Shown: positions 5,283 through 33,320 of the stretch, piece after piece
Layout: every line of letters begins with the position of its first letter
How positions within the stretch are numbered: the first letter of the stretch is position 1
Assembly: GCA_025462835.1 (NCBI GenBank)
Contig: JAOAPH010000108.1
Coordinates: 1 to 53,822 of the forward strand
Direction of reading: 5' to 3'
DNA length: 53,822 bases
From: Candidatus Angelobacter sp.
GTDB taxonomy: Bacteria; Acidobacteriota; Terriglobia; Terriglobales; Acidobacteriaceae
Translations under genes and position numbers: made by a program
Notes under the pieces: generated by a model
Seen by the model: only the letters and a program-made list of their open reading frames with translations
The model's database searches: none
Told to the model about the DNA's origin: nothing

Positions 5283-5284
5283 TG

Positions 5285-5342
5285 TCGACAAGATGAGCTA
5301 ACCTTCGACACCCTCTTCGACGCGTCATCGACACTTTTCGAC
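5285..5342. promoter_or_regulatory. Cluster of TCGAC repeats, putative enhancer (UAS)
   Basis: Five TCGAC copies start at 5285, 5305, 5317, 5328 and 5338. The last four are about one helical turn apart. TTCGACACC occurs twice exactly, and the first copy lies in the palindrome TGTCGACA. The cluster is 91-148 bp upstream of the -12 element at 5432-5433, the usual place for an enhancer-binding protein. The rest of the 268-nt gap shows no gene. Confidence 0.6.
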
Positions 5343-5418
5343 ACCTCTCCAATTCTCTCTCTCCCTTCCAACCTCACGAAAACAAAGGAAAGTGACACAA
5401 CTGTGATCCACATGCGTT

Positions 5419-5434
5419 TGGCGATGTCCGTGCA
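5419..5434 (+). promoter_or_regulatory. Sigma-54 (-24/-12) promoter for the first efflux unit
   Basis: TGGCGATGTCCGTGCA matches TGGCAC-N5-TTGCW with the strict GG-to-GC spacing. The predicted start is near 5445, giving a leader of about 105 nt to the STAS gene. Confidence 0.62.
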
Positions 5435-5550: not shown

Positions 5551-5859
5551 ATGTTGAAGATCACCGTAAACCACAACGAAACCCAAACGACACTGGTGCT
5601 CGAAGGCCAGCTTGTGGACCCATGGCTCGCCGAGCTCGAGCGCGTGTGGGCCGAGGCTCGCAGCAATGGGAACACACGCGGGGCGGTGATCGATCTGAAA
5701 GACGTGACTTCCATCAGCAAACGGGGGCAGGAACTTCTTGAAGAGATGATGACGAATGGCGCGAAATTCCACTGCTTGCGCGGAGTGCTGACCATGCATG
5801 TCGTCAAGCGGGTGATTCACAGGATGGTTTCGAAGAATACGAAGGATGGAAATAAATGA
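5551..5859 (+). CDS. STAS-domain-like protein (anti-sigma-antagonist fold)
   Basis: A 102-aa single-domain protein. The pattern of strands and helices (LKITVNHNETQTTLVLEGQLVDPWLAELERVWAEA, then GAVIDLKDVTSISKRGQELLEEMMTNGAKF) fits STAS proteins such as SpoIIAA. The usual phospho-acceptor region reads TSISKRGQ, so a serine or threonine is available but the classical DSSG motif is not. It is first in a five-gene unit and overlaps the next gene by ATGA, so it is probably translated in a fixed ratio with the sigma-like protein. A partner-switch role is suggested by the fold and by the PP2C phosphatase at 32133. No direct evidence links them. Confidence 0.75.
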   Translation: MLKITVNHNETQTTLVLEGQLVDPWLAELERVWAEARSNGNTRGAVIDLKDVTSISKRGQELLEEMMTNGAKFHCLRGVLTMHVVKRVIHRMVSKNTKDGNK

Positions 5860-6377
5860 GGACACAATATCAAGAGAGCAGCGATAGCGCCCAATTGAAA
5901 GTAACGGAATATGCAGCTGAGCAGGACTTCTGCAAGATATTCCACGCAGAGATGCAGTCTTTTTATCAGCTTGCGTTGATGCTGACGGGGAGTCACACCA
6001 AAGCGGAGCAGTCTTTTTCGGCTGCGCTGAGCGACTGCCTTCGAGCGACGGGCACCTTCAAGGCGTGGGCGTTGTCGCGCAGTCGACTCGCGGTCATTGA
6101 AAGAGCAATCAAGAATGCGGAACCGACATTGCGCGAAGTGCCAGCCGGCGTGAGTAAACAGATGGAAGCGATCTTGCGACTGGATGTGTTCGATCGTTTT
6201 GTCTACGTACTTACTGTTCTCGAAACATACAGCATTCGTGATTGCGCCATTCTACTGAGACGTCGGGTAACAGAGATCAACGCGGCCAGGTTGCGGGTAA
6301 TGGCAGCCATCGCCGCGCCCGCGAACCAGGTGCTTGCCCCTATCAACAATCTTCTACTCGCTCCCCTATCAGCCTAG
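5856..6377 (+). CDS. Degenerate sigma-70/ECF-like protein
   Basis: A 173-aa protein. Residues about 25-60 (FCKIFHAEMQSFYQLALMLTGSHTKAEQSF) resemble sigma region 2.1-2.2 of ECF factors. Residues about 120-150 (LETYSIRDCAILLRRRVTEINAARLRVM) resemble region 4. The aromatic/basic patch of region 2.3-2.4 that melts and reads the -10 box is hard to find, so it may not act as a true sigma factor. It overlaps the STAS gene by four bases (ATGA) and precedes the RND adaptor by 41 nt. Such a protein could titrate the STAS partner or bind RNA polymerase. The function is unknown. Confidence 0.65.
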   Translation: MRTQYQESSDSAQLKVTEYAAEQDFCKIFHAEMQSFYQLALMLTGSHTKAEQSFSAALSDCLRATGTFKAWALSRSRLAVIERAIKNAEPTLREVPAGVSKQMEAILRLDVFDRFVYVLTVLETYSIRDCAILLRRRVTEINAARLRVMAAIAAPANQVLAPINNLLLAPLSA

Positions 6378-6418
6378 ACATCTGCAACCATAATTTTTTG
6401 ACATTCGGAAAGAGAGTC

Positions 6419-7543
6419 ATGATCAAACGTATTCTGTTGACCTTAGTAGTAGCAGTGGTGGGAATCGGAGCTTTGGGCTTTGCGAAGTTCCAACAGATTC
6501 AAACGGCGGTGAAGGCCCACAGTTTCACACCTCCCCCGACGGCGGTGACGACGATCGTAGCCAAGCAGGAACAATGGTCATCGTCATTGAAATCGGTGGG
6601 CACAACGGTTGCTGTGCAAGGCGTGACGGTAAGCGCCGATCTTCCCGGCATCGTCGAGAGAATCTCGTTTGATTCTGGTCGGCAGGTGCATGTTGGCGAA
6701 GTGCTGGTAGAGCTCGACACGCGACAAGAGAAGGCCCAACTGGCAGCTGCGGAAGCGGACCGCGATCTAGCAGTGCTGAACTACGATCGGACCAAGTCCA
6801 TGGTGGAGCAAGGGGCAGTCACTCGGGCGGACTTCGATCGCACCGCAGCCGAAAAGAGTTCAACCGAAGCGAAAGTAGGCGAGATTCGCGCCACCATTGC
6901 CCGAAAGACGATTCGAGCGCCATTCACAGGTGTATTGGGCCTTCGGCAAGTCAACTTGGGACAGTACCTTTCCGCGGGAAACCCGGTCGTGCCCCTGCAA
7001 TCGCTCGACCCCATCTACGTAAATTTCGGCGTGCCTCAACAGGTTGCGTTCCAGGTGAAGGTCGGGCAGCGGGTGCAGGTCACGGCGAGTGATGCCGCAG
7101 GGCTGACGTTTGAAGCGCGCGTGACGGCGATTGATTCCGTCGTTGACGAATCCACTCGCAACATTCGTGTGCAAGCTACCTTGTCAAACCCTAAAGGGAA
7201 ATTGCGTCCTGGGATGTTCGTCGATGCGGAGCTTCAAACCGGCCAGGCGCAATCTGCAGTGTCATTGCCTGCGTCGGCCATAAGCTACGCACCTTACGGC
7301 AACTCGGTCTTCATTGTGAGCGAATTAAAAGATCCCACAGGCAAGACCTATCGCGGTGTGCGACAGCAGTTCGTAAAAATAGAGCGTTCGCGAGGTGACC
7401 AGGTGGCGATCATCTCGGGAGTAAATCCCGGCGACGAGGTTGTCACGTCAGGAACTTTCAAGCTTCGAAATGGCGCGGCCGTGAATGTGGAGAACAAGGT
7501 CCAGCCCCAAAACAATCCGGCGCCAAAGCCGGAAGATAGCTAA
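6419..7543 (+). CDS. RND efflux periplasmic adaptor (membrane fusion protein)
   Basis: A 374-aa adaptor. One N-terminal membrane anchor (IKRILLTLVVAVVGIGALGF) is followed by a lipoyl/barrel-sandwich half (TTVAVQGVTVSADLPGIVERISFDSG), an alpha-hairpin (AEADRDLAVLNYDRTKSMVEQGAVTRADFDR), the second lipoyl half (KTIRAPFTGVLGLRQVNLGQYLSAGNPVVPL), then beta-barrel and membrane-proximal domains. It bridges the inner-membrane pump and the outer-membrane channel. The start is ATG 6419 after GGAAAGAG; a longer open frame runs back into the sigma-like gene and is not needed. It is nine nt ahead of the pump gene. Confidence 0.93.
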   Translation: MIKRILLTLVVAVVGIGALGFAKFQQIQTAVKAHSFTPPPTAVTTIVAKQEQWSSSLKSVGTTVAVQGVTVSADLPGIVERISFDSGRQVHVGEVLVELDTRQEKAQLAAAEADRDLAVLNYDRTKSMVEQGAVTRADFDRTAAEKSSTEAKVGEIRATIARKTIRAPFTGVLGLRQVNLGQYLSAGNPVVPLQSLDPIYVNFGVPQQVAFQVKVGQRVQVTASDAAGLTFEARVTAIDSVVDESTRNIRVQATLSNPKGKLRPGMFVDAELQTGQAQSAVSLPASAISYAPYGNSVFIVSELKDPTGKTYRGVRQQFVKIERSRGDQVAIISGVNPGDEVVTSGTFKLRNGAAVNVENKVQPQNNPAPKPEDS

Positions 7544-7552
7544 GGAGCGGCG

Positions 7553-10500
7553 ATGAAGTTCACTGACGTTTTTATTAAACGACCAGTTCTGGCGATTGTG
7601 GTGAGCCTGGTGATCTTGATCGCTGGCTTGCAATCGATCCGCTCATTAAGTGTCCGCCAATATCCGCGTAGTGACATCGCGGTGGTGAGAATCACCACGA
7701 CTTATGTCGGCGCCAACTCTGATCTGGTGCGCGGTTTCATTACTACGCCGTTAGAGCGTGTGATCGCCAGCGCAGATGGAATCGATTACATGGAGTCCTC
7801 GAGCGCGCAGGGTGTGAGCACTATTACTGTGCACTTGAAACTCAATTACGACACCAATGCTGCATTGACGCAGGTGCAGGCGAAGGTGGCGCAGGTTCGG
7901 AACGATCTCCCGCCGGAAGCAGAGGCTCCGATCATCGAACTGGAGAATGCAGACACGCAGTTTGCAGCCATCTATATCGGCTTCTCCTCGAAAGACCTGG
8001 ACCAGAACCAGATCACCGATTACCTGACTCGTGTTGTGCAGCCGAAGTTGAGCGCAATCAGCGGCGTGCAGCGCGCGGACATCCTCGGGAATCGCACGTT
8101 CGCAATGCGTATTTGGCTGAAGCCGGACAAGATGACTGCTCTCGGCATCTCGCCATCAGCGATACAAGACGCGTTGGCGAGGAACAACTATCTTTCGGCG
8201 CTGGGAAAAACAAAAGGGTCGATGGTGTCAGTAAACCTGATCGCCAACACCGACCTTCGTTCGCCGGAAGAGTTCCGCCAAATGGTGGTGAAGCAAGAAA
8301 ACGGAAGCATCGTTCGACTGGGCGACGTTGCTGACGTTGTTCTCGGTGCGGAGAACTACGATCAAGACGTCCGATTTAATGGCGAGACCGCAACCTTCAT
8401 GGGTGTCTGGGTGCTTCCGACAGCGAACTCTCTAGACGTGGTTCGCCGCGTTCGCGAAGCCATGCCCGAGATAAGGGCGCAGTTGCCGACCGGAATGAAT
8501 GTTGGCATCCCATATGATTCGACAGAGTACATCCAGGACGCGATCAAGGAAGTGCTGCATACGTTGACTGAGACTTTGATCATCGTCGTGATCGTGATCT
8601 TCCTGTTTCTCGGCTCAATGAGGTCAGTGCTCATCCCCGTTGTGGCGATTCCGATCTCACTGATCGGTGCCGTCTTCCTGATGATGGCCGCTGGTTTCAC
8701 CATCAACTTGCTGACGCTGTTGGCCATCGTGCTCGCAGTGGGGCTAGTCGTGGATGACGCCATCGTTGTGGTAGAAAACGTTGAACGCCACCTGCATAGC
8801 GGCAAGACGGCATTTCAAGCTGCTATCGATGCTGCGCGCGAGCTGGTCGGACCTATCATCGCAATGACGATCACGCTCGCTGCCGTTTATGCGCCCGTAG
8901 GCATTCAGGGCGGCCTTACTGGAGCGCTCTTCCGGGAATTTGCATTCACGCTCGCCGGTGCTGTTGCTGTTTCCGGCGTCGTAGCACTTGTCTTATCACC
9001 GATGATGAGCGCGAATCTTCTGCGAAGTGGTGATACGGACCGGGGTTTCGCTGGCTGGGTCAATCATCGGTTTGACAGCCTTCGTAGTGCGTATACGCGC
9101 GCGTTGACCGGAACCTTGGGTTACAGGTCCGTCGTTCTCACAGTCTGGGCAGTGGTGGTGATCTTAGCTGTACCGTTCTACATGTTCTCTATGAAGGAAC
9201 TGGCACCCGCGGAAGATCAGGGAGTGGTATTCGGAATCATCCAGGCATCGCCGAATTCAACGCTGGATCAGACGAATCTTTACACCCAACAGGTACATGA
9301 CATCTACCGGTCGATGCCTGAAACAGGCAGCATCTTCCAGATCATCTCTCCAAACGGTGGATTCGGAGGAATGGTTACGAAACCCTGGAGCGAGCGGAAA
9401 AAGAGTGCGCAAGCATTGATGATGCAGTCCATGGGTCCGCTCTCCCAAGTGCCAGGCATTCGCGTGATACCGACAACGCCACCACCTCTCCCGGGCGGCG
9501 GTGACTTTCCCGTCGATCTTGTCATCGCTTCCGCGGCTGAGCCGAAGGAACTGACTGACATCGCGAACAGGCTCGTGGAGAAAGCGTACAAAAGCGGGAT
9601 GTTCATCTTTGCGGATGCTGATATGAAGTTCGATCAGCCGCAGACTGAGGTTGTCTTTGACCGTGACAAGCTTCGTTCGCAGGGCGTGGACCTCAGTCAG
9701 GCCGGTCGGGATCTGTCTGCACTGTTGGGCGGCAATTACGTCAATCGCTTTAGCATTCAGGGCCGAAGCTACAAGGTGATTCCTCAGGTGAAGCGGGTGC
9801 AGCGCCTCACGCCCGAGCAGCTCTCTGAGATTTACGTTACCGGCGCTCAAGGCAAGCTGGTACCGCTCTCGACCTTCGCGACTTTACGCTCGACCACTGA
9901 GCCTCGGGATTTAAGAAAATTCCAGCAGCTCAACGCGGTGCGCATACAGGGAGTCATTCCTCCAAACGTCACTCTGGACCAAGCGCTGAGCTTCCTGGAG
10001 AACGAAGCTCAGAAGGACCTCCCCAGGGGATTCACGATCGACTACGCCGGCCAATCACGACAGTTGCGTGTGGAAGGAAGCAAGTTCCTGGGCACGTTCT
10101 TGTTGTCTGGCATCTTGATCTACCTGGTACTGGCGGCTCAGTTTGAAAGCTTCCGCGATCCGTTCATCATCCTTGCCGGGTCAGTACCTCTGGCACTTTC
10201 GGGCGCACTGATGTTCTCGTTTCTGGGATTTACCACCTTGAACATCTACAGCCAGGTGGGATTGATCACGCTGGTGGGATTGATCTCGAAGAACGGAATC
10301 CTCATCGTGCAATTCGCGAATGAGCTGCAGATAGCCGGGAAGAACAAAGTGGAGGCTGTCCTGGAAGCGGCCGCTACGCGTCTGAGACCAATCATGATGA
10401 CCACCGCTGCCACCGTGATGGGGCACTTCCCGCTGATTCTCGCCACGGGACCCGGAGCCGGTGCGCGTAACAGCATTGGCATCATGCTGGTGAGCGGCAT

Positions 10501-10615
10501 GATCATCGGCACGGCGTTTACGCTTTTCATTGTGCCCTCTATCTATGTCTTGGTTGCTAAGACGCACGCCGCAGAGACTACCGAGCAACTTGTTGCCGAG
10601 GGCGCGGCGGCATGA
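7553..10615 (+). CDS. RND multidrug efflux permease (HAE1 family, MexB/MexF-like)
   Basis: A 1020-aa proton-driven inner-membrane pump of normal family length. It has 12 predicted membrane segments in the two-repeat layout, with large periplasmic loops after TM1 and TM7. The TM4 proton-relay pair is seen in GLVVDDAIVVVENVERH. TM1 begins FIKRPVLAIVVSLVILIAGL, the HAE1 signature. It works with the adaptor upstream and the outer-membrane factor downstream, which it overlaps (ATGA). The start ATG follows GGAGCGGCG. The substrate cannot be read from sequence; organic antibiotics, solvents or a product of the polyketide genes downstream are possible. Confidence 0.95.
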   Translation: MKFTDVFIKRPVLAIVVSLVILIAGLQSIRSLSVRQYPRSDIAVVRITTTYVGANSDLVRGFITTPLERVIASADGIDYMESSSAQGVSTITVHLKLNYDTNAALTQVQAKVAQVRNDLPPEAEAPIIELENADTQFAAIYIGFSSKDLDQNQITDYLTRVVQPKLSAISGVQRADILGNRTFAMRIWLKPDKMTALGISPSAIQDALARNNYLSALGKTKGSMVSVNLIANTDLRSPEEFRQMVVKQENGSIVRLGDVADVVLGAENYDQDVRFNGETATFMGVWVLPTANSLDVVRRVREAMPEIRAQLPTGMNVGIPYDSTEYIQDAIKEVLHTLTETLIIVVIVIFLFLGSMRSVLIPVVAIPISLIGAVFLMMAAGFTINLLTLLAIVLAVGLVVDDAIVVVENVERHLHSGKTAFQAAIDAARELVGPIIAMTITLAAVYAPVGIQGGLTGALFREFAFTLAGAVAVSGVVALVLSPMMSANLLRSGDTDRGFAGWVNHRFDSLRSAYTRALTGTLGYRSVVLTVWAVVVILAVPFYMFSMKELAPAEDQGVVFGIIQASPNSTLDQTNLYTQQVHDIYRSMPETGSIFQIISPNGGFGGMVTKPWSERKKSAQALMMQSMGPLSQVPGIRVIPTTPPPLPGGGDFPVDLVIASAAEPKELTDIANRLVEKAYKSGMFIFADADMKFDQPQTEVVFDRDKLRSQGVDLSQAGRDLSALLGGNYVNRFSIQGRSYKVIPQVKRVQRLTPEQLSEIYVTGAQGKLVPLSTFATLRSTTEPRDLRKFQQLNAVRIQGVIPPNVTLDQALSFLENEAQKDLPRGFTIDYAGQSRQLRVEGSKFLGTFLLSGILIYLVLAAQFESFRDPFIILAGSVPLALSGALMFSFLGFTTLNIYSQVGLITLVGLISKNGILIVQFANELQIAGKNKVEAVLEAAATRLRPIMMTTAATVMGHFPLILATGPGAGARNSIGIMLVSGMIIGTAFTLFIVPSIYVLVAKTHAAETTEQLVAEGAAA

Positions 10616-10623
10616 GGAAACCT

Positions 10624-12030
10624 ATGAAAACAACAGCTAGCCTTTCCGTAACATTCATTATGGCGATCGTGCTCACCGGCTGCGCAGTGGGCACGCAATA
10701 CAAACGGCCGGCAGTTGCCACGCCACCCGAGTTTCGCGGGGAGACAACGTCCAAAGCGGATGCGGCTTCACTCGCGGATCTGAAATGGTTCGAGGTTTTC
10801 AAGGATGAGCAACTTCGGCAACTTCTGGCCGCAGCTGTGCAGAACAACTATGACGTTCGAGAGGCAGCTGCCCGCGTGGAAGGAGCGCGTGCGTTATTGG
10901 GAATCACACGAGCAGATCAGCTTCCGACGATCAGCACGAGCGGCGGCCTGACGACACAACGCACCTCAGCCAATGGTGCTTTCACGTTGCCGCAAAACCT
11001 AGATCTGACCCGCACATACGGTTCAGTTGGGTCGAACCTACTCTCCTATGAGGTGGATCTCTGGGGCCGGTTGCGAAATGCAACCGCCGCTGCGCGGGCG
11101 GATATGCTCGCGTCCGAAGAGAATCGAAAAACCATAGTCACCGGCGTGGTGAGCGACGTAACCAGTGCATATTACGATCTACTGGAACTTGATGCGGAAC
11201 TCGAGATCGCAAAACGCACGCTGACGAGCCGCGAAAGTTCACTTCGGCTGATCGAGAGCCGGGAAAAGGTCGGTTTGGCTTCGACCCTGGAAGTGCGGCA
11301 GGGCCAACAGCTCGTGCAAGTCGCGGCTCAAAGCCTTCCAATCATCGAGCAACAGATTGCGCAGACTGAGAACCGGCTTCGGCTCCTCGTTGGAGAACTT
11401 CCGGGTCCAGTCGCACGGACACAACTCTTGGCTCAAAAACAACCGCCAGTGGTGCCTGCGGGAGTGCCTTCGGCTTTGCTGCAGCGCCGGCCTGATATTC
11501 GCGCAGCCGAACAAACCCTTGTCGCCTCGAATGCAAGGATCGCCGTAGCTCGGGCAGCGTATTTTCCGACGATCAGCCTAACGGGTATTTTGGGCTTCCA
11601 GAGCAATCAACTGGGAAGTTTATTTACGGGTCCAAACAAAGCCTGGCAATTTGCGCCACAATTGGCGCAACCGGTCTTCACTGGTGGCAGGCTTCGCTCG
11701 AACGTACAATTCGCCCGCGCGCAACAGGACGTTGCACTCGTGCAGTATGAGCGAACCGTCCAGACCGCCTTCCGCGAAGTATCGGATTCACTGGTGCAAT
11801 ACGAAACCGTAGGACACGTCCGCGGCCAGCAAGAAGCGCTTGTAGCTACGCTGCAGGACCGGTCCCGCCTCTCGTACGTCCGTTACCGCGGCGGTGTTGC
11901 AACGTTACTGGATGCCCTCGACGCTGATCGGGATCTATTCGATGCGGAACTGCGGTTAGCTCAGTTGCGGCGCGATGAACTGGCAACCGTTGTTCATTTA
12001 TATCGAGCGCTCGGTGGAGGTTGGCAATGA
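10624..12030 (+). CDS. NodT/OprM-type outer-membrane efflux lipoprotein
   Basis: A 468-aa outer-membrane factor. The signal peptide ends in the lipobox LTGC (Cys20), then AVGTQYKRP, the usual start of mature OprM-like proteins. Two repeated helical/strand halves follow, with ELLQRRPDI-type motifs (ALLQRRPDIRAAEQTL) in the middle. I chose the ATG at 10624 because GAGG sits six bases before it; an ATG at 10612 overlaps the pump stop (ATGA) and would add MRKP. It completes the tripartite pump. A small dyad lies 21 nt after the stop. Confidence 0.93.
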   Translation: MKTTASLSVTFIMAIVLTGCAVGTQYKRPAVATPPEFRGETTSKADAASLADLKWFEVFKDEQLRQLLAAAVQNNYDVREAAARVEGARALLGITRADQLPTISTSGGLTTQRTSANGAFTLPQNLDLTRTYGSVGSNLLSYEVDLWGRLRNATAAARADMLASEENRKTIVTGVVSDVTSAYYDLLELDAELEIAKRTLTSRESSLRLIESREKVGLASTLEVRQGQQLVQVAAQSLPIIEQQIAQTENRLRLLVGELPGPVARTQLLAQKQPPVVPAGVPSALLQRRPDIRAAEQTLVASNARIAVARAAYFPTISLTGILGFQSNQLGSLFTGPNKAWQFAPQLAQPVFTGGRLRSNVQFARAQQDVALVQYERTVQTAFREVSDSLVQYETVGHVRGQQEALVATLQDRSRLSYVRYRGGVATLLDALDADRDLFDAELRLAQLRRDELATVVHLYRALGGGWQ

Positions 12031-17580: not shown

Positions 17581-20500
17581 ATGTGGATCGTTGCGCTTGC
17601 GCTTAGGCGGCCGTACACGTTCGTAGTGGTAGCCATCCTCATCTTGATCATGGGTGTGCTCTCGATTCTTCGCACACCCACGGATATCTTCCCGAATATC
17701 GACATTCCGGTGGTCGCCATCGTCTGGAACTTCACCGGGCTTCTGCCGGAGGATATGGATGCCCGAATCGTCCGCATCACACAGCTGGCACTTACCACGA
17801 CGGTAGATAACATCGAACACATCGAGTCGCAGTCGTTGTACGGAGTTGCTGTCGTCAAAGTGTTTTTGCAGCCGACAGCGAACATTCAGCGAGGCATTGC
17901 ACAGATCACAGCTGTCTCCCAGACCCAGCTCAGGCAGTTGCCTACAGGAACTACACCACCCCTTATCATCAGCTATAGCGCATCGACCGTTCCGATTTTG
18001 CAACTCGCCCTCTCTGGCCAAGGTCTCTCCGAGCAGCAGCTCAACGATTTCGCCCTAAACTTCGTCCGTACTCAGCTCATCACTGTTCCGGGAGCGTCGG
18101 TACCTTACCCCTATGGTGGAAAACAACGACAAGTGCAGGTGGACCTGAATACAACCGCGTTGCAGTCGAAGGGTCTCTCTGCGCTGGACGTGGTCAATGC
18201 GATCAGCGTGAATAACCTCATCCTGCCCTCGGGCACGGCCAAGATAGGCCCCACGGAATATGACGTGGATATCCCAAACGCAGCGCCGGTAACGATCGAG
18301 GATCTAAACCGCATACCCATCAAAACAATCGGCAGCACCACCATCTACATGCAAGATGTTGCCTGGGTACGGGACGGCTTCCCCCCGCAAACCAATATCG
18401 TAAGAGTGAACGGGGAGCGGTCAGTATTGCTGACAGTCGAAAAGGCTGGAAATGCGTCAACGCTGAGCATCATAGCGGGCATCAAGTCTCTTCTGCCGCA
18501 GATCGCAACGACGCTTCCACCCGCGCTAAAGATCACACCTCTCGCCGACCAGAGCATTTTTGTCAAAGGCGCCATCAGTGGTGTGGTCAGGGAGGCCGTG
18601 ATTGCCGCGTGCCTTACGGCTCTCATGGTTCTAATTTTTCTGGGGAGCTGGCGCAGCACCCTCATCATTGCGACTTCGATCCCCCTGGCGATCCTGACCT
18701 CGCTGATCACGCTGAGTGCGATCGGGGAAACCATCAACATCATGACGCTGGGCGGGATGGCACTGGCCGTCGGCATCCTGGTGGACGATGCCACCGTAGA
18801 AGTTGAGAACATCAACAGGAACCGGGCTCTAACGCCAGAGAAGAACATGGACGATGTGGTGTTGGAGAGCGCGTCTCAGATAGCCACGCCGGCATTCGTC
18901 TCCACACTGTCGATCAGCATCGTTTTCGTTCCCATGTTCTTGCTGTCCGGCGTGGCCAAGTACCTCTTCGTGCCGCTCGCGGAAGGAGTAGTGTTCGCAA
19001 TGTTGGCATCCTACTTTCTCTCCCGGACGATCGTTCCCACGATGGCCAAGTACCTGTTGCCCGGCCAGAAAATGGAATCCGGGGAGGTCCGTGCAGCGAG
19101 CCGCAATCCGCTGGTCAGACTTCAGCAACGCTTTGAGGAAGCTTTTGAAAAGTTCCGTGAGGGCTATCACAGTCTGCTGGGGAAAGCTCTGCATCACCGG
19201 CGTCTTTTTCTGACCGCTTTCTTCGCAGCATGTCTCGTCTCATTGGCGATTCTGATCCCCTGGCTGGGTGAGGACTTCTTTCCCACCGTAGACGCAGGAA
19301 GTTTCCTTCTGCATCTCCGCGGCCCCACGGGGATGCGCATTGAACAGTCTGCCCATCTTTGCGATCTAGTGGAGCAATCGATTCGACGACAGATTCCGGC
19401 AGACCAAGTCTCAAACATCATCGACAATATAGGTCTGCCCTATAGCGGAATCAACCTTGCTTACAGCAGTTCGGCGCCGGTCGGGACCATGGATGCCGAT
19501 ATTCTGGTTACGCTGTCCCCGAAACACCAACCTACTGAAGAATTTGTTCACAAACTTCGCCTGACACTCCCTTCAGAATTTCCGGGGGCGAGCTTTTATT
19601 TCCTGCCTTCTGACATGGTCGGTCAGATTCTGAACTTCGGTCTGCCAGCTCCCATTGACATCCAGGTTGTCGGAAATAACATAGAAGGTAACCGGCAGTT
19701 CGCAGACGCATTGCTACAGAAGATCAGGTATGTTACAGGAACGGCTGACCTGCGGATCCAACAGCCCTTCGATCAACCTTATCTGAACCTCCAAGTCGAA
19801 CGCACCAAGGCCCAGCAACTTGGCTTCACGGCGCAAAACATAGCGCAAAACCTCCTCGTCTCACTTAGCGGTAGCTTCCAGACATCGCCAACGTTCTGGG
19901 TTGATACAAAGACACAGGTCAGCTATCAAATCGCAACCCAGACTCCGCAGTACCGTGTAGATACGCTGCAGGACCTAGTTAACATCCCAGTCACCGGATT
20001 AAACGCGACGGTTCCCCCGTCGCTCATGGCCAGTCTGATGTCGATGAAACGAGGGACGGGCATGGCGACAGTTTCTCGCTACAACATTGCGCCCGTCATT
20101 GATATTTACGGCTCGGTCGCAGGACGCGACCTGGGCGGAGTATCTACCGACATCAACAAGATAATTGATGCCGCGCGAAAGGACTTACCACGCGGCTCTC
20201 AAGTGATTGTTCGCGGGCAGGTGCAGACGATGCGGTCCTCTTACATCGGCCTTATGGGCGGCCTGGTGTTTGCCATCGTGCTCGTCTATCTGCTGATCGT
20301 GGTCAACTTCCAGTCGTGGCTGGATCCCTTCATCATTATCACCGCATTGCCTGCGGCGCTGGCGGGAATCGCCTGGATGCTGTTCGTGACCAAAACGCAT
20401 TTGAGCGTACCTGCGCTCACGGGAGCGATCATGTGCATGGGCGTTGCAACCGCGAACAGCATATTGGTAGTGAGCTTCGCGACTGAACAGATGATGGACG

Positions 20501-20763
20501 GTAAGGATTCCATCGCCGCTTCACTGGAGGCCGGCTTTACCCGTTTTCGTCCTGTGCTGATGACTGCCTTGGCAATGATCATCGGCATGGTACCGATGGC
20601 GCTAGGGCTTGGCGATGGTGGCGAAGAAAACGCTCCCCTGGGAAGGGCCGTCATTGGCGGGCTGCTATTCGCGACAGTTTCCACGCTGTTCTTTGTGCCC
20701 ACGGTTTTCAGCGTGCTGCACGGGATCCGGCAGCGTCGAGCCCAAGCCAGGAGCAAGCAATAG
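17581..20763 (+). CDS. RND efflux permease, second system
   Basis: A 1060-aa RND pump. TM1 is LRRPYTFVVVAILILIMGVLSI. The TM4 acidic pair is in GILVDDATVEVENINRN. Twelve membrane segments and two periplasmic porter halves follow the family layout. It differs clearly from the pump at 7553 (for example ATVEVENINRN against AIVVVENVERH), so it is not a recent duplicate. The operon order pump-adaptor-outer membrane factor also differs from the first unit. The start ATG has only a weak GAGTGA site. Substrate unknown; heavy-metal pumps have a longer signature not seen here. Confidence 0.94.
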   Translation: MWIVALALRRPYTFVVVAILILIMGVLSILRTPTDIFPNIDIPVVAIVWNFTGLLPEDMDARIVRITQLALTTTVDNIEHIESQSLYGVAVVKVFLQPTANIQRGIAQITAVSQTQLRQLPTGTTPPLIISYSASTVPILQLALSGQGLSEQQLNDFALNFVRTQLITVPGASVPYPYGGKQRQVQVDLNTTALQSKGLSALDVVNAISVNNLILPSGTAKIGPTEYDVDIPNAAPVTIEDLNRIPIKTIGSTTIYMQDVAWVRDGFPPQTNIVRVNGERSVLLTVEKAGNASTLSIIAGIKSLLPQIATTLPPALKITPLADQSIFVKGAISGVVREAVIAACLTALMVLIFLGSWRSTLIIATSIPLAILTSLITLSAIGETINIMTLGGMALAVGILVDDATVEVENINRNRALTPEKNMDDVVLESASQIATPAFVSTLSISIVFVPMFLLSGVAKYLFVPLAEGVVFAMLASYFLSRTIVPTMAKYLLPGQKMESGEVRAASRNPLVRLQQRFEEAFEKFREGYHSLLGKALHHRRLFLTAFFAACLVSLAILIPWLGEDFFPTVDAGSFLLHLRGPTGMRIEQSAHLCDLVEQSIRRQIPADQVSNIIDNIGLPYSGINLAYSSSAPVGTMDADILVTLSPKHQPTEEFVHKLRLTLPSEFPGASFYFLPSDMVGQILNFGLPAPIDIQVVGNNIEGNRQFADALLQKIRYVTGTADLRIQQPFDQPYLNLQVERTKAQQLGFTAQNIAQNLLVSLSGSFQTSPTFWVDTKTQVSYQIATQTPQYRVDTLQDLVNIPVTGLNATVPPSLMASLMSMKRGTGMATVSRYNIAPVIDIYGSVAGRDLGGVSTDINKIIDAARKDLPRGSQVIVRGQVQTMRSSYIGLMGGLVFAIVLVYLLIVVNFQSWLDPFIIITALPAALAGIAWMLFVTKTHLSVPALTGAIMCMGVATANSILVVSFATEQMMDGKDSIAASLEAGFTRFRPVLMTALAMIIGMVPMALGLGDGGEENAPLGRAVIGGLLFATVSTLFFVPTVFSVLHGIRQRRAQARSKQ

Positions 20764-20773
20764 GAGCAACAAT

Positions 20774-21991
20774 ATGTTTGGAGTCAGTATGCAACAGAAG
20801 ACAGAACTCGAGCCATTGAGGGCTGCGGGAGACGAAAAGAAGTCTCATAAAGGTTGGATAGCCGTTGTGATTGTATTGCTCCTGGTAGCAGGGGTGTTGA
20901 CATACGGGATAGTGTCTCGCATCCGCGCAAAGGCAGCGTTAAGCAAAGAGACCGCGAAGACGGCTGTACCCCCGGTATCAGTCGTGCCTCCGAAGCCATC
21001 TACGCCGGCGCAGGACATCATCCTGCCGGGAAACGTAGAACCATTTATTGCTTCACCGATCTACGCCCAAACGACTGGCTATCTGAAAAAGTGGTATTTC
21101 GATATTGGAGCACACGTCAAAAAGGGGCAATTACTTGCTGTGGTCGACAGTCCAGCAGTCGATCAGCAATACGCACAAGCGCGCAGCAACCTGTCGACCG
21201 CGGAGGCGAACCTCAGGCTGGCAGAGATCACGAAAAACCGTTACCTGGGACTACTGAAGACCCATGCTGTTGCCCAGCAGGACGCGGACAATGCGGTTGG
21301 TACCTACAATGCGAACAAGGCCATCGTCGACGCAAATCGGGCCAACGTACAGCAGTTCCAGGTTTTGAAGGAATTTGAAAGGGTTTATGCGCCGTTCGAT
21401 GGCGTAATCACCGCTCGCAATACCGACATTGGAGATCTCATTACTTCCGGCAGCACTGCCGCTAACAATTCGAGGACCGATCTCTTTCATATTTCCCAGC
21501 CGGGTAAGTTGCGCGTGTATGTAAACGTTCCAGAAGAATATTCTCGCGGTGTGAAACCCGGCATGACCGCACAGCTCGCACTGGCTGAATTCCCTGGCCG
21601 GCAGTTCCAGGGTGTGCTCGTGCGCACTGCTGAAGCCATCAACATGACCACCCGCACATTGCTCATAGAGGTTCAAGTTGACAATCCTACGAACACATTG
21701 CTCACTGGCTCGTATGCGGAAGTGCACCTGAAGGTGCCGGATTCGAATCCGACGTTCGTGATTCCGGTCAATACTCTGATATTCCGCGCGCAAGGTTTAC
21801 ACGTTGGCGTGGTAAAGGACGGGAAGGCGGTAGTCACGCCTGTTACTGCAGGTCGCGATTTCGGCAATACGATAGAGATCGTTCACGGCCTCAATGCCGG
21901 TGACCAAATCATCGTGAACCCGTCAGATTCTCTCGTTACCGGTCAAGCTGTGCAGACCGTCCAAGCGTCTTTGCCAGGGGATTTGAAGTGA
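20774..21991 (+). CDS. RND efflux periplasmic adaptor, second system
   Basis: A 405-aa membrane fusion protein. A cytoplasmic N-terminal tail is followed by one membrane anchor (GWIAVVIVLLLVAGVLTYGIV, about residues 24-44). The lipoyl halves are around PIYAQTTGYLKKWYFDIGAHVKKGQLLAVVD and ERVYAPFDGVITARNTDIGDLI, with a long alpha-hairpin between. The start is ATG 20774 with TAGGAG ahead; the longer frame runs back inside the pump gene. Its end overlaps the next gene (GTGA). It couples the pump at 17581 to the channel at 21988. Confidence 0.93.
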   Translation: MFGVSMQQKTELEPLRAAGDEKKSHKGWIAVVIVLLLVAGVLTYGIVSRIRAKAALSKETAKTAVPPVSVVPPKPSTPAQDIILPGNVEPFIASPIYAQTTGYLKKWYFDIGAHVKKGQLLAVVDSPAVDQQYAQARSNLSTAEANLRLAEITKNRYLGLLKTHAVAQQDADNAVGTYNANKAIVDANRANVQQFQVLKEFERVYAPFDGVITARNTDIGDLITSGSTAANNSRTDLFHISQPGKLRVYVNVPEEYSRGVKPGMTAQLALAEFPGRQFQGVLVRTAEAINMTTRTLLIEVQVDNPTNTLLTGSYAEVHLKVPDSNPTFVIPVNTLIFRAQGLHVGVVKDGKAVVTPVTAGRDFGNTIEIVHGLNAGDQIIVNPSDSLVTGQAVQTVQASLPGDLK

Positions 21992-23487
21992 ACCGCTTGG
22001 CAAAGGCGAAACCTTTCGACAAGGCATGCTCGTCTTGGATGGTGCTCCTTCTCGCGGTCGGCGTGCTGCAATTTAACGGCTGCACGGTCGGACCAACGTA
22101 TCGACGTCCTGCAGCCGTAGATTCTCCCTATACAGTTCCGCCAGCCTATAAAGAGGTTGGCAATTGGAAGACTGCCCAACCGAGTGATCAGTTCCTCGGT
22201 GGCAACTGGTGGGAGATATTTCAGGATCCGCAGCTGAATGCCCTGGAACAACAGGTCAATGTCTCGAACCAAAATCTAAAGGTGGCGCAGGCCCAATACG
22301 CGCAAGCGCGCGCGCTGGTCCGCTATAACCGTGCCGATTTTTTTCCGACGGTCACCGCGGGCGCGAGCGCAACCCGGAGCAGGACGTCGTCAAACCGTCC
22401 ACCTGTTAACTCGATATTCAACGGCATTACTTCCAGCGACTTCCAAATTCCTTTCGAATTGTCCTATCAAGTCGACGCGTTCGGGCGCGTGCGCCGCAAC
22501 GTCGAGTCGTTTCGCGCACAGGCACAAGCCAGCGCAGCCGATCTGGCAACCGTTAACCTGAGCATGCATACCCAGCTTGCTTTATTTTACTTTGAAGCGC
22601 GCAGCCTGGATGCACAAGAGCAGCTTCTGCTATCGACGGTCAAGGAGTACACACAATTCCTGCAATTAACAGAGAACAGGTTTACCGGAGGAGTCGCTTC
22701 TGAGGTGGATGTCCAACAGGCGAAAACGCAACTCAAGACGACAGAGGCGCTGGCAATAGATGTGGGTGTGCAACGGGCACAGTTCGAACATGCGGTTGCA
22801 ACTCTGATCGGGAAACCTCCCTCCACGTTCGATCTTCCTCCGCTCCCTCTGACCGCGCCCCCTCCTGTGATTCCGCCGGGGGTTCCTTCAGAACTGCTCG
22901 AACGCCGCCCTGATATCTCTGCTTCCGAGAGATTGATGCAGTCTTCAAACGCGCAGATCGGAGTGGCCAAGGCGGCGTATTATCCCACCATCAACTTGAC
23001 TGCCACTGGTGGGTTTGAGAGCAGCGTGATCACAACATTACTTTCCGGCCCAAGCATTCTCTGGTCCGCCGGGCCTTCAGCGGCGGTCACGGTATTCGAC
23101 GTCGGGAGGCGGCGGGCTCTCACAGACGAGGCGCTCGCTGCTTACGATCAAACCGTCGCTACCTATCGGCAAACAGTCCTAACGAGTTTTCAGCAAGTAG
23201 AAGACAATCTAGCCGCACTGCGAATTCTGGAGCACGAGGCGCAGGTTCAAAATGAAGCTGTGATTGCGGCCCAGAGGTCGCTTCAACTTTCGCTTCAACG
23301 ATACAGTGGTGGCGTCACCAGTTACCTGGAAGTGACCACCGCTCAGACTGCGGCGCTTTCTGACGAAATTACCGCAGTCAATATTCTGGGACGCCGCTTG
23401 GTGGCCGCAGTCCAACTGGTGCAGGCTCTGGGTGGCGGATGGGATACATCGCAATTGCCATCGATGAAATCGGTAAGCGCGCGATGA
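21988..23487 (+). CDS. NodT-type outer-membrane efflux lipoprotein, second system
   Basis: A 499-aa outer-membrane factor with a lipobox FNGC after a hydrophobic signal, then TVGPTYRRP. The central ELLERRPDISASERLMQSSNAQIGVAKAAYYPTINL motif is typical of the family. It starts at GTG 21988, overlapping the adaptor stop, and ends nine bases before the -24 element of the next operon, so the sigma-54 promoter at 23496 sits directly behind it. Confidence 0.93.
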   Translation: MNRLAKAKPFDKACSSWMVLLLAVGVLQFNGCTVGPTYRRPAAVDSPYTVPPAYKEVGNWKTAQPSDQFLGGNWWEIFQDPQLNALEQQVNVSNQNLKVAQAQYAQARALVRYNRADFFPTVTAGASATRSRTSSNRPPVNSIFNGITSSDFQIPFELSYQVDAFGRVRRNVESFRAQAQASAADLATVNLSMHTQLALFYFEARSLDAQEQLLLSTVKEYTQFLQLTENRFTGGVASEVDVQQAKTQLKTTEALAIDVGVQRAQFEHAVATLIGKPPSTFDLPPLPLTAPPPVIPPGVPSELLERRPDISASERLMQSSNAQIGVAKAAYYPTINLTATGGFESSVITTLLSGPSILWSAGPSAAVTVFDVGRRRALTDEALAAYDQTVATYRQTVLTSFQQVEDNLAALRILEHEAQVQNEAVIAAQRSLQLSLQRYSGGVTSYLEVTTAQTAALSDEITAVNILGRRLVAAVQLVQALGGGWDTSQLPSMKSVSAR

Positions 23488-27313: not shown

Positions 27314-28732
27314 ATGAGTGAGTCATATTCTCCCATCTACGTGGTGGATGATGATGAATCGATACTTGAGGCTGTGGGAAGTTTGGTTCGATCAGCGGGA
27401 TTCCCTGTAGAGACCTTTGCGTCCGCGCAGGAGTTTCTGACGAGCCCCCGGGAAAATCCTCCGAGCTGTTTGGTCCTGGACGTACAGCTCCCTGGCTTAA
27501 GTGGGCTCGAGCTGCAACAGGAGCTTACGAAGTCCGATGTCCGGGTCCCGATTATTTTCCTCACAGGTCACGGCGATATCCCGATGTCGGTTCGAGCGAT
27601 GAAAGCGGGCGCCATTGAGTTCTTGACCAAGCCTTTTCACGATGAGGACCTGCTAGATGCGATTCAGTACGGGATTGCCCGGAGTAGTGGTTCGGAGCAG
27701 CATCGGACAGATAGCCCCCGCTTATCAATCGAACCGCTAAAGGGCTCATCCTTCAATGATCTCCACTTGGAAGAAGAGGTTGGAAATCATACTGGCTTTG
27801 ATGGAATCGTGGGTCAGAGTCGAGCTCTCCGCCAGGCGCTCCAGCTAGTGGACATGGTGGCAGGCAGCGATTCGACCGTCCTCTTGCGTGGGGAGACAGG
27901 CACAGGAAAAGAACGGATCGCGCGCGCTATTCACGATCGTAGCCACCGGAAGCAGCGACCGTTCGTAAAACTGAACTGCGCTGCCATTCCCAGCGGGCTG
28001 CTGGAGAGCGAACTCTTTGGGCACGAGCGGGGAGCCTTCACCGGCGCCATTACTCAAAAGATAGGCAGGTTTGAACTGGCCGATGGCGGTACGTTGTTTC
28101 TGGACGAAGTTGGAGATATTCCGCTCGAACTTCAGCCCAAACTCTTACGGGCTCTACAGGAACGGGAATTCGAGCGCCTGGGTAGCACGCGCACAAAAAA
28201 GGTCGACGTTCGACTAGTGGCAGCCACCAATTGCAACCTGGAAGAGATGATCGCTAAAAAGGAGTTCCGCTGCGACCTGTACTATCGGCTGAATGTTTTT
28301 CCCATCCACATCCCTCCACTGCGTGAGCGTTCGGAAGACATTCCTTTGCTGCTGCAATACTTCACGCAGAAGTACGCGCGCCGTATGCAAAAGGAGATTG
28401 AGATTGTTCCAGCAGCAGCTCTGAGCGAACTGACACGTTGGCATTGGCCAGGAAACATTCGTGAGCTTGAGAATCTCGTCGAGCGCGCAGTGGTACTTAC
28501 ACGAGACAGCAGCCTTGCGATCTCGGTTCCTGAGTTGATGAAAAGCGGCGCAAACGCCGGGCCCGTGAAAGTTGACGACTTGGACGAGCAAGAGCACATT
28601 GTGCGGACCTTGAAAGAGACTCAAGGGCGGGTCGGCGGCCCGAACGGAGCCGCGGCCCGCATGGGCTTGAAACGGACGACACTGATTACACGGATGAAGA
28701 AAATGGGAATCGACGCGCGCAAGGTGGCCTAA
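27314..28732 (+). CDS. NtrC-type sigma-54 response regulator (receiver-AAA+-Fis)
   Basis: A 472-aa enhancer-binding protein. The receiver (1-125) has phospho-acceptor Asp56 in VLDVQLPG and Lys in FLTKPF. The AAA+ domain (about 155-385) has [14 protein letters not shown] and LFLDEVGD. The Fis HTH is [21 protein letters not shown]. Sensor I region reads AATNCNL, where Arg is usual (AATNRNL in the paralogue at 3192). AAA and Fis regions are nearly identical to that paralogue, so both probably act on the same enhancers, one through phosphorylation and one through GAF ligands. The ATG follows AGAGGTAACGTT. It converges with the next gene with eight bases between. Confidence 0.94.
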   Translation: MSESYSPIYVVDDDESILEAVGSLVRSAGFPVETFASAQEFLTSPRENPPSCLVLDVQLPGLSGLELQQELTKSDVRVPIIFLTGHGDIPMSVRAMKAGAIEFLTKPFHDEDLLDAIQYGIARSSGSEQHRTDSPRLSIEPLKGSSFNDLHLEEEVGNHTGFDGIVGQSRALRQALQLVDMVAGSDSTVLLRGETGTGKERIARAIHDRSHRKQRPFVKLNCAAIPSGLLESELFGHERGAFTGAITQKIGRFELADGGTLFLDEVGDIPLELQPKLLRALQEREFERLGSTRTKKVDVRLVAATNCNLEEMIAKKEFRCDLYYRLNVFPIHIPPLRERSEDIPLLLQYFTQKYARRMQKEIEIVPAAALSELTRWHWPGNIRELENLVERAVVLTRDSSLAISVPELMKSGANAGPVKVDDLDEQEHIVRTLKETQGRVGGPNGAAARMGLKRTTLITRMKKMGIDARKVA

Positions 28733-32012: not shown

Positions 32013-32067
32013 GTGTCAACTGACACTGCCGAGCCCACGACACCTCGACTCATTCAGTCATTCGTCG
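32013..32067. promoter_or_regulatory. GTGTCA-TGACAC dyad plus CGACACC/CTCGAC sites, putative enhancer (UAS)
   Basis: A perfect dyad GTGTCA-AC-TGACAC (32013-32026) is followed by CGACACC at 32038, CTCGAC at 32044 and GTCGAG at 32064. The group is 49-103 bp upstream of the -12 at 32115-32116. The half-sites match those at the other sigma-54 promoters. Confidence 0.58.
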
Positions 32068-32101
32068 AGAAGCAAGCCCTTTTAAATCAATGCTCATCAT
32101 T

Positions 32102-32117
32102 TGGAAGCCTGCTTGCT
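32102..32117 (+). promoter_or_regulatory. Sigma-54 (-24/-12) promoter for the PP2C phosphatase
   Basis: TGGAAGCCTGCTTGCT: a full TTGCT -12 at the strict spacing. The predicted start, near 32128, is about five bases before ATG 32133, which supports that start codon. Confidence 0.6.
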
Positions 32118-32132
32118 CTAAAGAATAGATTC

Positions 32133-33320
32133 ATGAGCTGGCTGTCACTTTTTCGGGAGGACGTTGGGGCGGGAGTTCGCAAGTGGCTTCCACTCGCGTT
32201 TGTGTTGGGATCGATCGCCATTGTTGCTTACGCTGACGGCATCGCCAGTTCAGTCCCGCTTGGGTATCTCTACGTCTTGCCACTCGGGATCGGCGCCATG
32301 TTCCTGCGCTCTGAGATCAGCTACGGACTTATTGCCATCTGTGCTGTTTTGCATGATTTACTCCGTCCCGATTATTTGACGCTCCACGGTCGTATCGCTC
32401 ACAACATCACCGGAATTATCGTATTTTCGTTTGTTGTATATGCCATCCAGCGGTACGTGAAGCAAAGGGAAGTATTGTCCAGAGCGGTGCGCCAGCAGCG
32501 CGATGATCTTCTCCACGACGTGGAACTCGCAGGACAAGTGCAGCGCATGTTTCTTCCCGTGGGCCGGCCAGCCATTCCCGGACTGGATATTGTGGGAATG
32601 ATGCAACCGGCACGTGGCGTGGGTGGTGACTACTACGACTACATACCTATCGATGAACATACGATTCAGATCGTGATCGCCGATGTGGCCGGAAAAGGGG
32701 TGCCTGCTGCGCTACTGATGTCGGCGGCAGCGGCGTCGATGCAACTGGAGGCCAACCAGGCTCGAGACATGCTGGAGATCGTTGGCCGACTGAACGGCGG
32801 AATTCACTCTGTCTCAGATGGGATCCGATATGTAACGTTGCTGCTTGCAGAGGTGGACGCCAATGGCCGAACATTGCGCTACGTGAACTGTGGACATAAT
32901 CCGGCAATCCTGTATCAGGAAAAGACCGGTGAGGCAGTGTCTATGGACTCTTCCTGTCCGCCGCTGGGAATGTTTTCCCAAGCTTCATGTGAGATCGGCC
33001 GATACGACCTTGCCGTCGGCGATGTGATGGTCTTTTACACTGATGGTGTAACGGAAGCAGAGAACCGGACTGGAGAAGAATTCGGTATAGAGCGTCTCCA
33101 GGCAGTAGTGCGGCGTAGTTCGTCTTTGTCTGCAGAGGGCATCATGGGCGCAATCTTTCATGCGACGGCCGACTTCCACCAGGGGCTTGGCTTCAACGAC
33201 GATGTCACCATCCTGGTAGTGAAATGCAATTTCGACGGGCCTGAGCTGGTTCATTCGCGCAAGCGCTCTGACAGGGACGTGGAACCTCTCGCGGCAACAA
33301 TCAATGCGGATCGCGAATGA
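32133..33320 (+). CDS. Membrane SpoIIE/RsbU-type PP2C serine phosphatase
   Basis: A 395-aa protein. The N-terminal third has about four membrane segments (WLPLAFVLGSIAIVAYADG; PLGYLYVLPLGIGAMFL; ISYGLIAICAVLHDLL; ITGIIVFSFVVYAIQRY). A coiled linker (QRDDLLHDVELAGQVQRMFLP) leads to the PP2C/SpoIIE domain with ARGVGGDYYDYI, VIADVAGKGVPAALLMS, FYTDGVTEAEN and FNDDVTILVV, holding the metal-binding Asp residues. It dephosphorylates a protein partner, classically a STAS antagonist; the STAS protein at 5551 is a candidate. Start: ATG 32133 fits the promoter at 32102; GTG 32013 would add 40 unlikely residues. Confidence 0.9.
   Translation: MSWLSLFREDVGAGVRKWLPLAFVLGSIAIVAYADGIASSVPLGYLYVLPLGIGAMFLRSEISYGLIAICAVLHDLLRPDYLTLHGRIAHNITGIIVFSFVVYAIQRYVKQREVLSRAVRQQRDDLLHDVELAGQVQRMFLPVGRPAIPGLDIVGMMQPARGVGGDYYDYIPIDEHTIQIVIADVAGKGVPAALLMSAAAASMQLEANQARDMLEIVGRLNGGIHSVSDGIRYVTLLLAEVDANGRTLRYVNCGHNPAILYQEKTGEAVSMDSSCPPLGMFSQASCEIGRYDLAVGDVMVFYTDGVTEAENRTGEEFGIERLQAVVRRSSSLSAEGIMGAIFHATADFHQGLGFNDDVTILVVKCNFDGPELVHSRKRSDRDVEPLAATINADRE

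Follow-up and report, generated by a model that had tools for sequence, protein, structure and literature searches.

In the usual view, partner switching depends on phosphorylation: a PP2C phosphatase dephosphorylates a STAS protein of the SpoIIAA/RsbV type, and this protein in turn releases a sigma factor from an RsbW-type kinase. The nearest biological parallel to the locus described here is the syp locus of Vibrio fischeri, in which the gene of the single-domain STAS protein SypA stands first, synthesis and export genes follow and the dedicated activator SypG switches the locus on; SypA is switched at S56 by the kinase/phosphatase SypE, and the non-phosphorylatable variant SypA-S56A is active (PMC4517449). 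A second point of comparison is PhyR, a protein of the alphaproteobacterial general stress response whose sigma-like domain has an extracytoplasmic function (ECF) sigma fold described as degenerate in the core- and promoter-contact regions (PMC8103513). The present analysis concerns a 53,822-nt stretch of DNA from Candidatus Angelobacter sp. (referred to as the window; contig C47 of a 3.6-Mb draft assembly that is 84% complete), in which a STAS gene and a sigma-like gene head an operon for a resistance-nodulation-division (RND) efflux pump downstream of a sigma-54 activator gene. The locus is tentatively read as an activator-controlled efflux module in which the STAS protein and a sigma mimic may act by dosage and not by phosphorylation.

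The first protein of the operon had been taken for an antagonist-type STAS protein in the original prediction, an identity borne out by its SpoIIAA/RsbV fold. In a Pfam scan, neither a STAS nor a sigma domain scored above threshold in the window's own two proteins. The STAS family profile matched TM1442 (6e-8) and SpoIIAA (4e-5), and the AlphaFold model (predicted local distance difference test, pLDDT, 84.8) matched RsfB, RsbV and SpoIIAA in Foldseek with E values down to 1.2e-5, so that the STAS call is right; MlaB was also among the structure and profile matches. The phosphorylated serine of SpoIIAA is the residue after Asp in D-S-S-G, and the SpoIIAA alignment includes a structure mutated at the phosphosite that reads D-A-S-G. 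The window STAS reads S-K-R-G at this site, with K57 at the acceptor position and Ser in place of the preceding Asp, and does not conform to the D-S/T-x-G phospho-acceptor pattern of SpoIIAA/RsbV antagonists. Across the family, 6 of 44 members carry Ser/Thr at the acceptor position and the seven sigma-paired members (the residue of L160 was taken directly from its sequence) all lack it, whereas seven out of eight of the genome's ordinary STAS proteins have it there (Fisher p 9e-5). The Asp before the acceptor position is mostly gone too in the sigma-paired subfamily. The STAS protein has thus very probably lost its phosphate switch, judging from the residues at this site. Despite the likeness in fold and profile, it further differs from SpoIIAA/RsbV in that no RsbW/SpoIIAB-type kinase gene was found alongside and in that it sits in a pump operon with a sigma-54-type promoter read from sequence. 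It also differs from SypA, with K57 where SypA has S56 and no SypE-like protein seen.

These features bear on the proposal, made in the original prediction, that a membrane PP2C phosphatase near 32133 controls efflux through a new form of partner switching. A phosphatase of the RsbU/SpoIIE type is indeed encoded there, with its open reading frame (ORF) starting at GTG 32013 or ATG 32133. The partner-switching part of the proposal was not supported, as the acceptor position is K57, the assembly encodes ten full-length phosphatases of the SpoIIE type, this one included, and nothing ties it to the operon. In its classical form, with the phosphatase dephosphorylating the STAS protein, which then frees the neighbouring sigma from an RsbW-type kinase, partner switching would account for the STAS fold, the presence of an RsbU-type PP2C within the same window and the RsbW-like kinases of the genome. 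It is highly improbable here, being already contradicted by the absence of an acceptor Ser/Thr in this protein and most of its family, by the lack of a kinase seen at the locus and by the loss of core-binding and -10 elements from the sigma-like protein. An RsbW-type kinase gene was not recognized among the window genes by ORF reading, and the loci were not each searched for RsbW. The RsbW-like kinase at C115 adjoins its own phosphorylatable STAS gene; since the acceptor is lost, the phosphatase is one of ten and a phosphorylatable STAS with an RsbW-like kinase is found elsewhere in the genome, switching of the window STAS by phosphorylation is unlikely. A link between the phosphatase and the efflux operon was rejected in view of the ten such phosphatases and the ordinary phosphorylatable STAS and kinase elsewhere. 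A TTGGAAGCCTGCTTGCT site was spotted by eye about 16–32 nt before ATG 32133, a position that falls within the PP2C ORF if the longer version is taken. Together with an inverted TCGAC/GTCGA pair (32048–32117) it resembles in kind the sites preceding the STAS gene, and may belong to the same regulon.

For the second protein, the AlphaFold model (pLDDT 85.7) is two-domain and helical with a sigma2-sigma4 fold. Its two Foldseek matches with E below 0.001 are both to RpoE from the complex with NepR, and of the 50 matches listed nearly all are sigma factors or PhyR sigma-like domains. The best PDB match of the family profile was the PhyR sigma-like domain (8.8e-5), and orthologues reach Pfam Sigma70_r4_2. 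In the alignment, the core-binding motif of region 2.2, a Q-E that follows acidic residues, is gone in 12/12 sigma-like members together with six region 2.3 residues, whereas the QE motif and a full-length region 2.3 are present in all ten aligned ECF factors from the same phylum, a set chosen by QE-motif pattern and in whose choice region 2.3 length played no part; the sigma-like members do not, on these features, qualify as ECF factors. Sigma factors use these elements to bind the RNA polymerase core and the -10 element. Their absence from every member makes it probable that the protein mimics a sigma factor without functioning as one, and loss of sigma activity is considered likely from these deletions. 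The wording of the original prediction, that its promoter-reading regions are weak, was a good reading given the region 2.2/2.3 losses and the PhyR-like degeneracy. Unlike PhyR, the window protein is a stand-alone sigma-like domain without a receiver domain and is paired with a STAS protein.

That the protein is a functional ECF sigma factor, much diverged and, like HrpL, expressed under the control of sigma-54, would be compatible with the region 4 fold, which is kept and is recognized in orthologues, and with L115, where an intact ECF gene comes after the STAS gene. Set against the region 2.2/2.3 losses in all members and the absence of about 20 region 4 residues as well from the member in L051 (3551–4093), this explanation is very unlikely. 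The STAS and ECF genes of L115 (4615–5689) lie behind an activator and possibly represent the ancestral state of the pair; L116 may be similar, its ECF reading frame overlapping the STAS gene.

The linkage of these genes was then considered across Acidobacteriota. A first profile search with a 4-row STAS alignment gave five loci, the relatives being Acidobacteria metagenome genomes. Matches to the STAS family profile were found in 89 of 396 phylum genomes, although ordinary STAS proteins may account for the weaker matches. Linkage counts rest on the neighbourhoods of 44 sampled STAS loci, searched over 4 kb up- or downstream. Upstream of STAS, 37 loci have an activator of the window's type (33 of them on the same strand), as opposed to none of the seven ordinary STAS neighbourhoods of this genome, and genes for a membrane fusion protein (MFP), RND permease, outer-membrane factor (OMF) or ATP-binding cassette (ABC) exporter lie downstream in 22. 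Exporters of the major facilitator superfamily (MFS) were spotted by eye at L107 and L160. In a tree built from a MAFFT alignment, the STAS-linked activators, including that of the window, formed one clade relative to the other activators of the genome (support 0.999). A second activator in the window (27314–28732; receiver and AAA+ domains) is the only non-STAS-linked member of this clade, and no STAS gene comes after it.

The pair of STAS and sigma-like genes behind such an activator was found in seven loci. Apart from the window, these are C197 (L053, G000:C197:1-9000), the second such operon of this genome, where activator, STAS and sigma-like genes are followed by a Spy/CpxP-like periplasmic protein, MFP and RND; L159 (G585), the closest orthologous operon to that of the window, with MFP-RND; L051, with OMF-MFP-RND; L049, with an ABC exporter; L160 (G508), with an MFS exporter; and L050, where the contig ends after the pair. 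The exporter is thus of the RND, ABC or MFS type in all but L050. STAS alone recurs much more widely than the pair, and some other sigma-like genes stand alone. The ATGA overlap that joins the two ORFs of the window is repeated in the C197 pair, and a similar junction occurs in L049. ORF positions, Pfam and NCBIfam confirmed the arrangement originally described, in which the two ORFs share four bases ahead of a complete pump with MFP, RND permease and OMF genes together. Of the checks that had been suggested, structure prediction recovered a STAS fold and an ECF-sigma/PhyR fold, and conserved linkage of the pair to efflux genes was found in relatives; neither outcome named as refuting the idea, a lack of linkage or of the expected folds, was observed.

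A sigma-54 promoter had also been predicted before the operon, and this is supported at the sequence level by the TTGGCGATGTCCGTGCA site, by phylum-wide motif enrichment and by the activator gene upstream, a combination of -24/-12 promoter and dedicated AAA+ activator as in a sigma-54 regulon. The TTGGCGATGTCCGTGCA site is the best -24/-12 match before STAS and an acceptable one, its score being reached by 2.7% of random 250-mers, and lies farther from the STAS start than the sites of most relatives. Phylum-wide, 30 of 45 loci had a best match upstream of STAS with p<=0.05, and in 28 of 45 the best match was located 38–60 nt before the STAS start; among the 45 is L125, an ordinary STAS that served as an unlinked case. 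A score >=20 was obtained for 47% of STAS upstream regions and 2.5% of random 250-mers. Nowhere else in the 53.8-kb window are TCGACA sequences clustered as densely as between activator and STAS, with six copies in this intergenic region, a number reached by 0/2000 shuffles. TCGACA-like repeats also precede the pair in C197, L049 and L050, and single copies or repeats occur in L051 and L159; such repeats stand out clearly in the window's relatives, though not at every locus of the phylum. They are proposed to be the activator sites. The activator has the domain order and sigma-54 interaction domain of FhlA/NorR-type GAF-AAA+ proteins but belongs to its own STAS-linked clade, with proposed binding repeats of the TCGACA type. 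A control layer of activator, repeats, sigma-54 promoter and operon is well supported by the sequence and very likely correct.

Features of the window relevant to the operon are given in Table 1.

Table 1. Positions of the operon, its putative control elements and the PP2C gene in the window.
Feature	Position	Strand	Evidence or remark
Sigma-54 activator, GAF-GAF-AAA+-helix-turn-helix, FhlA/NorR-like, GAFTGA loop, 696 aa	3192-5282	+	Pfam Sigma54_activat (238 bits) and two GAF domains
Array of TCGACA-type repeats, proposed activator binding sites	5283-5345	no strand	TGTCGACA, TTCGACAC, TTCGACG, ATCGACAC, TTCGACAC
Sigma-54-type -24/-12 site TTGGCGATGTCCGTGCA	5418-5434	+	Motif scoring, shuffle p about 0.01
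STAS-fold protein of 102 aa; no phospho-acceptor Ser/Thr in its S56-K57-R58-G59	5551-5859	+	Profile, AlphaFold, Foldseek
Degenerate ECF-sigma-like protein, 173 aa	5856-6377	+	Structure model, profile, alignment; region 4 fold kept
RND periplasmic adaptor (MFP)	6419-7543	+	TIGR01730 251.8 bits
RND permease, HAE1 multidrug type	7553-10615	+	PF00873 870.8 bits, NF033617 1117 bits
OMF, NodT type	10612-12030	+	TIGR01845 381.8 bits
Membrane RsbU/SpoIIE-type PP2C phosphatase, judged outside the system	32013-33320	+	Pfam SpoIIE 159.7 bits

Under the tentative reading given above, the GAF domains of the activator would sense a small molecule, upon which the activator would bind the TCGACA repeats and turn on the operon via sigma-54, so that the pump and the STAS/sigma mimic would rise together. 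Given the residues they lack, the STAS protein would not be switchable by serine phosphorylation and the sigma-like protein would be unable to replace a sigma factor on RNA polymerase. The most likely mechanism, although a speculative step, is that both serve as permanent protein decoys and exert an effect that depends on the amount made, the STAS protein perhaps being an always-on binder of the anti-anti-sigma type and the mimic a PhyR-like decoy. Speculatively, they may titrate a cytosolic partner, either an anti-sigma factor or, as feedback, the activator itself, and such titration could couple efflux induction to a wider response. This explanation is preferred because both proteins resemble anti-anti-sigma modules (STAS that of TM1442/SpoIIAA and the sigma-like protein the PhyR sigma-like domain) and because non-phosphorylatable SypA is active. 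Compared to the window operon, the syp locus is without a sigma mimic and without a drug-type pump, and SypG is a response regulator whereas the window activator carries two GAF domains. Several observations weigh against the decoy explanation. No partner protein was found for the STAS protein or the mimic, and no NepR match was found in the assembly (84% complete). Seven of the 44 STAS loci have no activator within 4 kb upstream, two of them (L096, L101) being cut by contig ends, and 22 have no MFP, RND, OMF or ABC gene within 4 kb downstream, MFS exporters having been outside the queries. In addition, STAS distances correlate about equally with those of adaptor and activator, a result that shifts with sampling; Mantel tests of STAS against activator or adaptor leaned in opposite directions before and after removal of near-identical loci, and they did not tell apart the two main rivals, feedback on the activator and a role on the pump side.

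The same correlations bear on a feedback explanation, in which the STAS protein, with the mimic where present, would bind the GAF or AAA+ part of the activator and turn it down once the operon is on, much as PspA turns down PspF. The activator is the most constant STAS neighbour, both across different exporters and where no exporter follows, the STAS-linked activators fall in one clade, and in the thinned set the correlation between STAS and activator distances persists once the adaptor is corrected for (partial r 0.30–0.33, p<0.01). The partial correlation is weak in the unthinned set, however (0.13, p 0.115), binding is not demonstrated by gene linkage alone and we know of no STAS feedback on an enhancer-binding protein; overall, feedback of this kind is somewhat unlikely.

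A role on the pump side, with the STAS protein on the cytosolic face of the transporter controlling its assembly or activity in the manner of MlaB within MlaFEDB, is unlikely. MlaB, a STAS-only protein encoded with an envelope transporter and having no anti-sigma role, was among the matches, STAS genes precede RND, MacB-type ABC and EmrB-type MFS exporters, STAS-adaptor distances correlate and two in-frame STAS-OMF reading frames exist. However, the three superfamilies to which these exporters belong are unrelated and share no cytosolic surface, and several STAS-activator loci are without an exporter. Moreover, MlaB binds an ABC ATPase, whereas most pumps at STAS loci are of the RND or MFS type and lack an ATPase to which an MlaB-like protein could bind. 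The two STAS-OMF frames, in L107 (8387–10045) and L109 (7484–9112), join STAS and a TolC-type OMF without interruption (552 and 542 aa) and belong to two families; a signal-peptide-like stretch lies between the two parts, which is consistent with either a fusion or an internal start.

The module is assembled from known parts. No description of a STAS/sigma-mimic efflux module was found in the literature searched (STAS with efflux, sigma-54 or Acidobacteria), a review of STAS-only proteins makes no mention of efflux, Acidobacteria or sigma-54, and no paper on efflux control in soil Acidobacteria was found in the literature searched. To our knowledge, the pair would be the first case of both kinds of anti-anti-sigma module made from adjacent genes. 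A large STAS set with the fold kept and the switch lost, tied to one sigma-54 activator clade and three exporter superfamilies, suggests a different use of STAS; proteins missed by Pfam gain a testable function, and the conserved TCGACA repeats and -24/-12 sites offer a handle on efflux control in soil Acidobacteria. It is conceivable, if doubtful, that this reflects a design spanning the phylum, with sigma-54 activators driving operons in which a switchless STAS, sometimes with a sigma mimic, precedes a pump, and with two structurally unrelated anti-anti-sigma modules serving as dosage-controlled decoys that join efflux control to a sigma-70-family response without phosphorylation.

Other pump genes were seen in the window and at related loci. 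A second tripartite RND operon (permease, adaptor and OMF; 17581–23487), without STAS, is located about 6 kb downstream of the first. In one family of loci (L094, L095, L098, L099 and L100), the RND permease frames behind STAS extend over about 1475 residues, some 400 more than usual.

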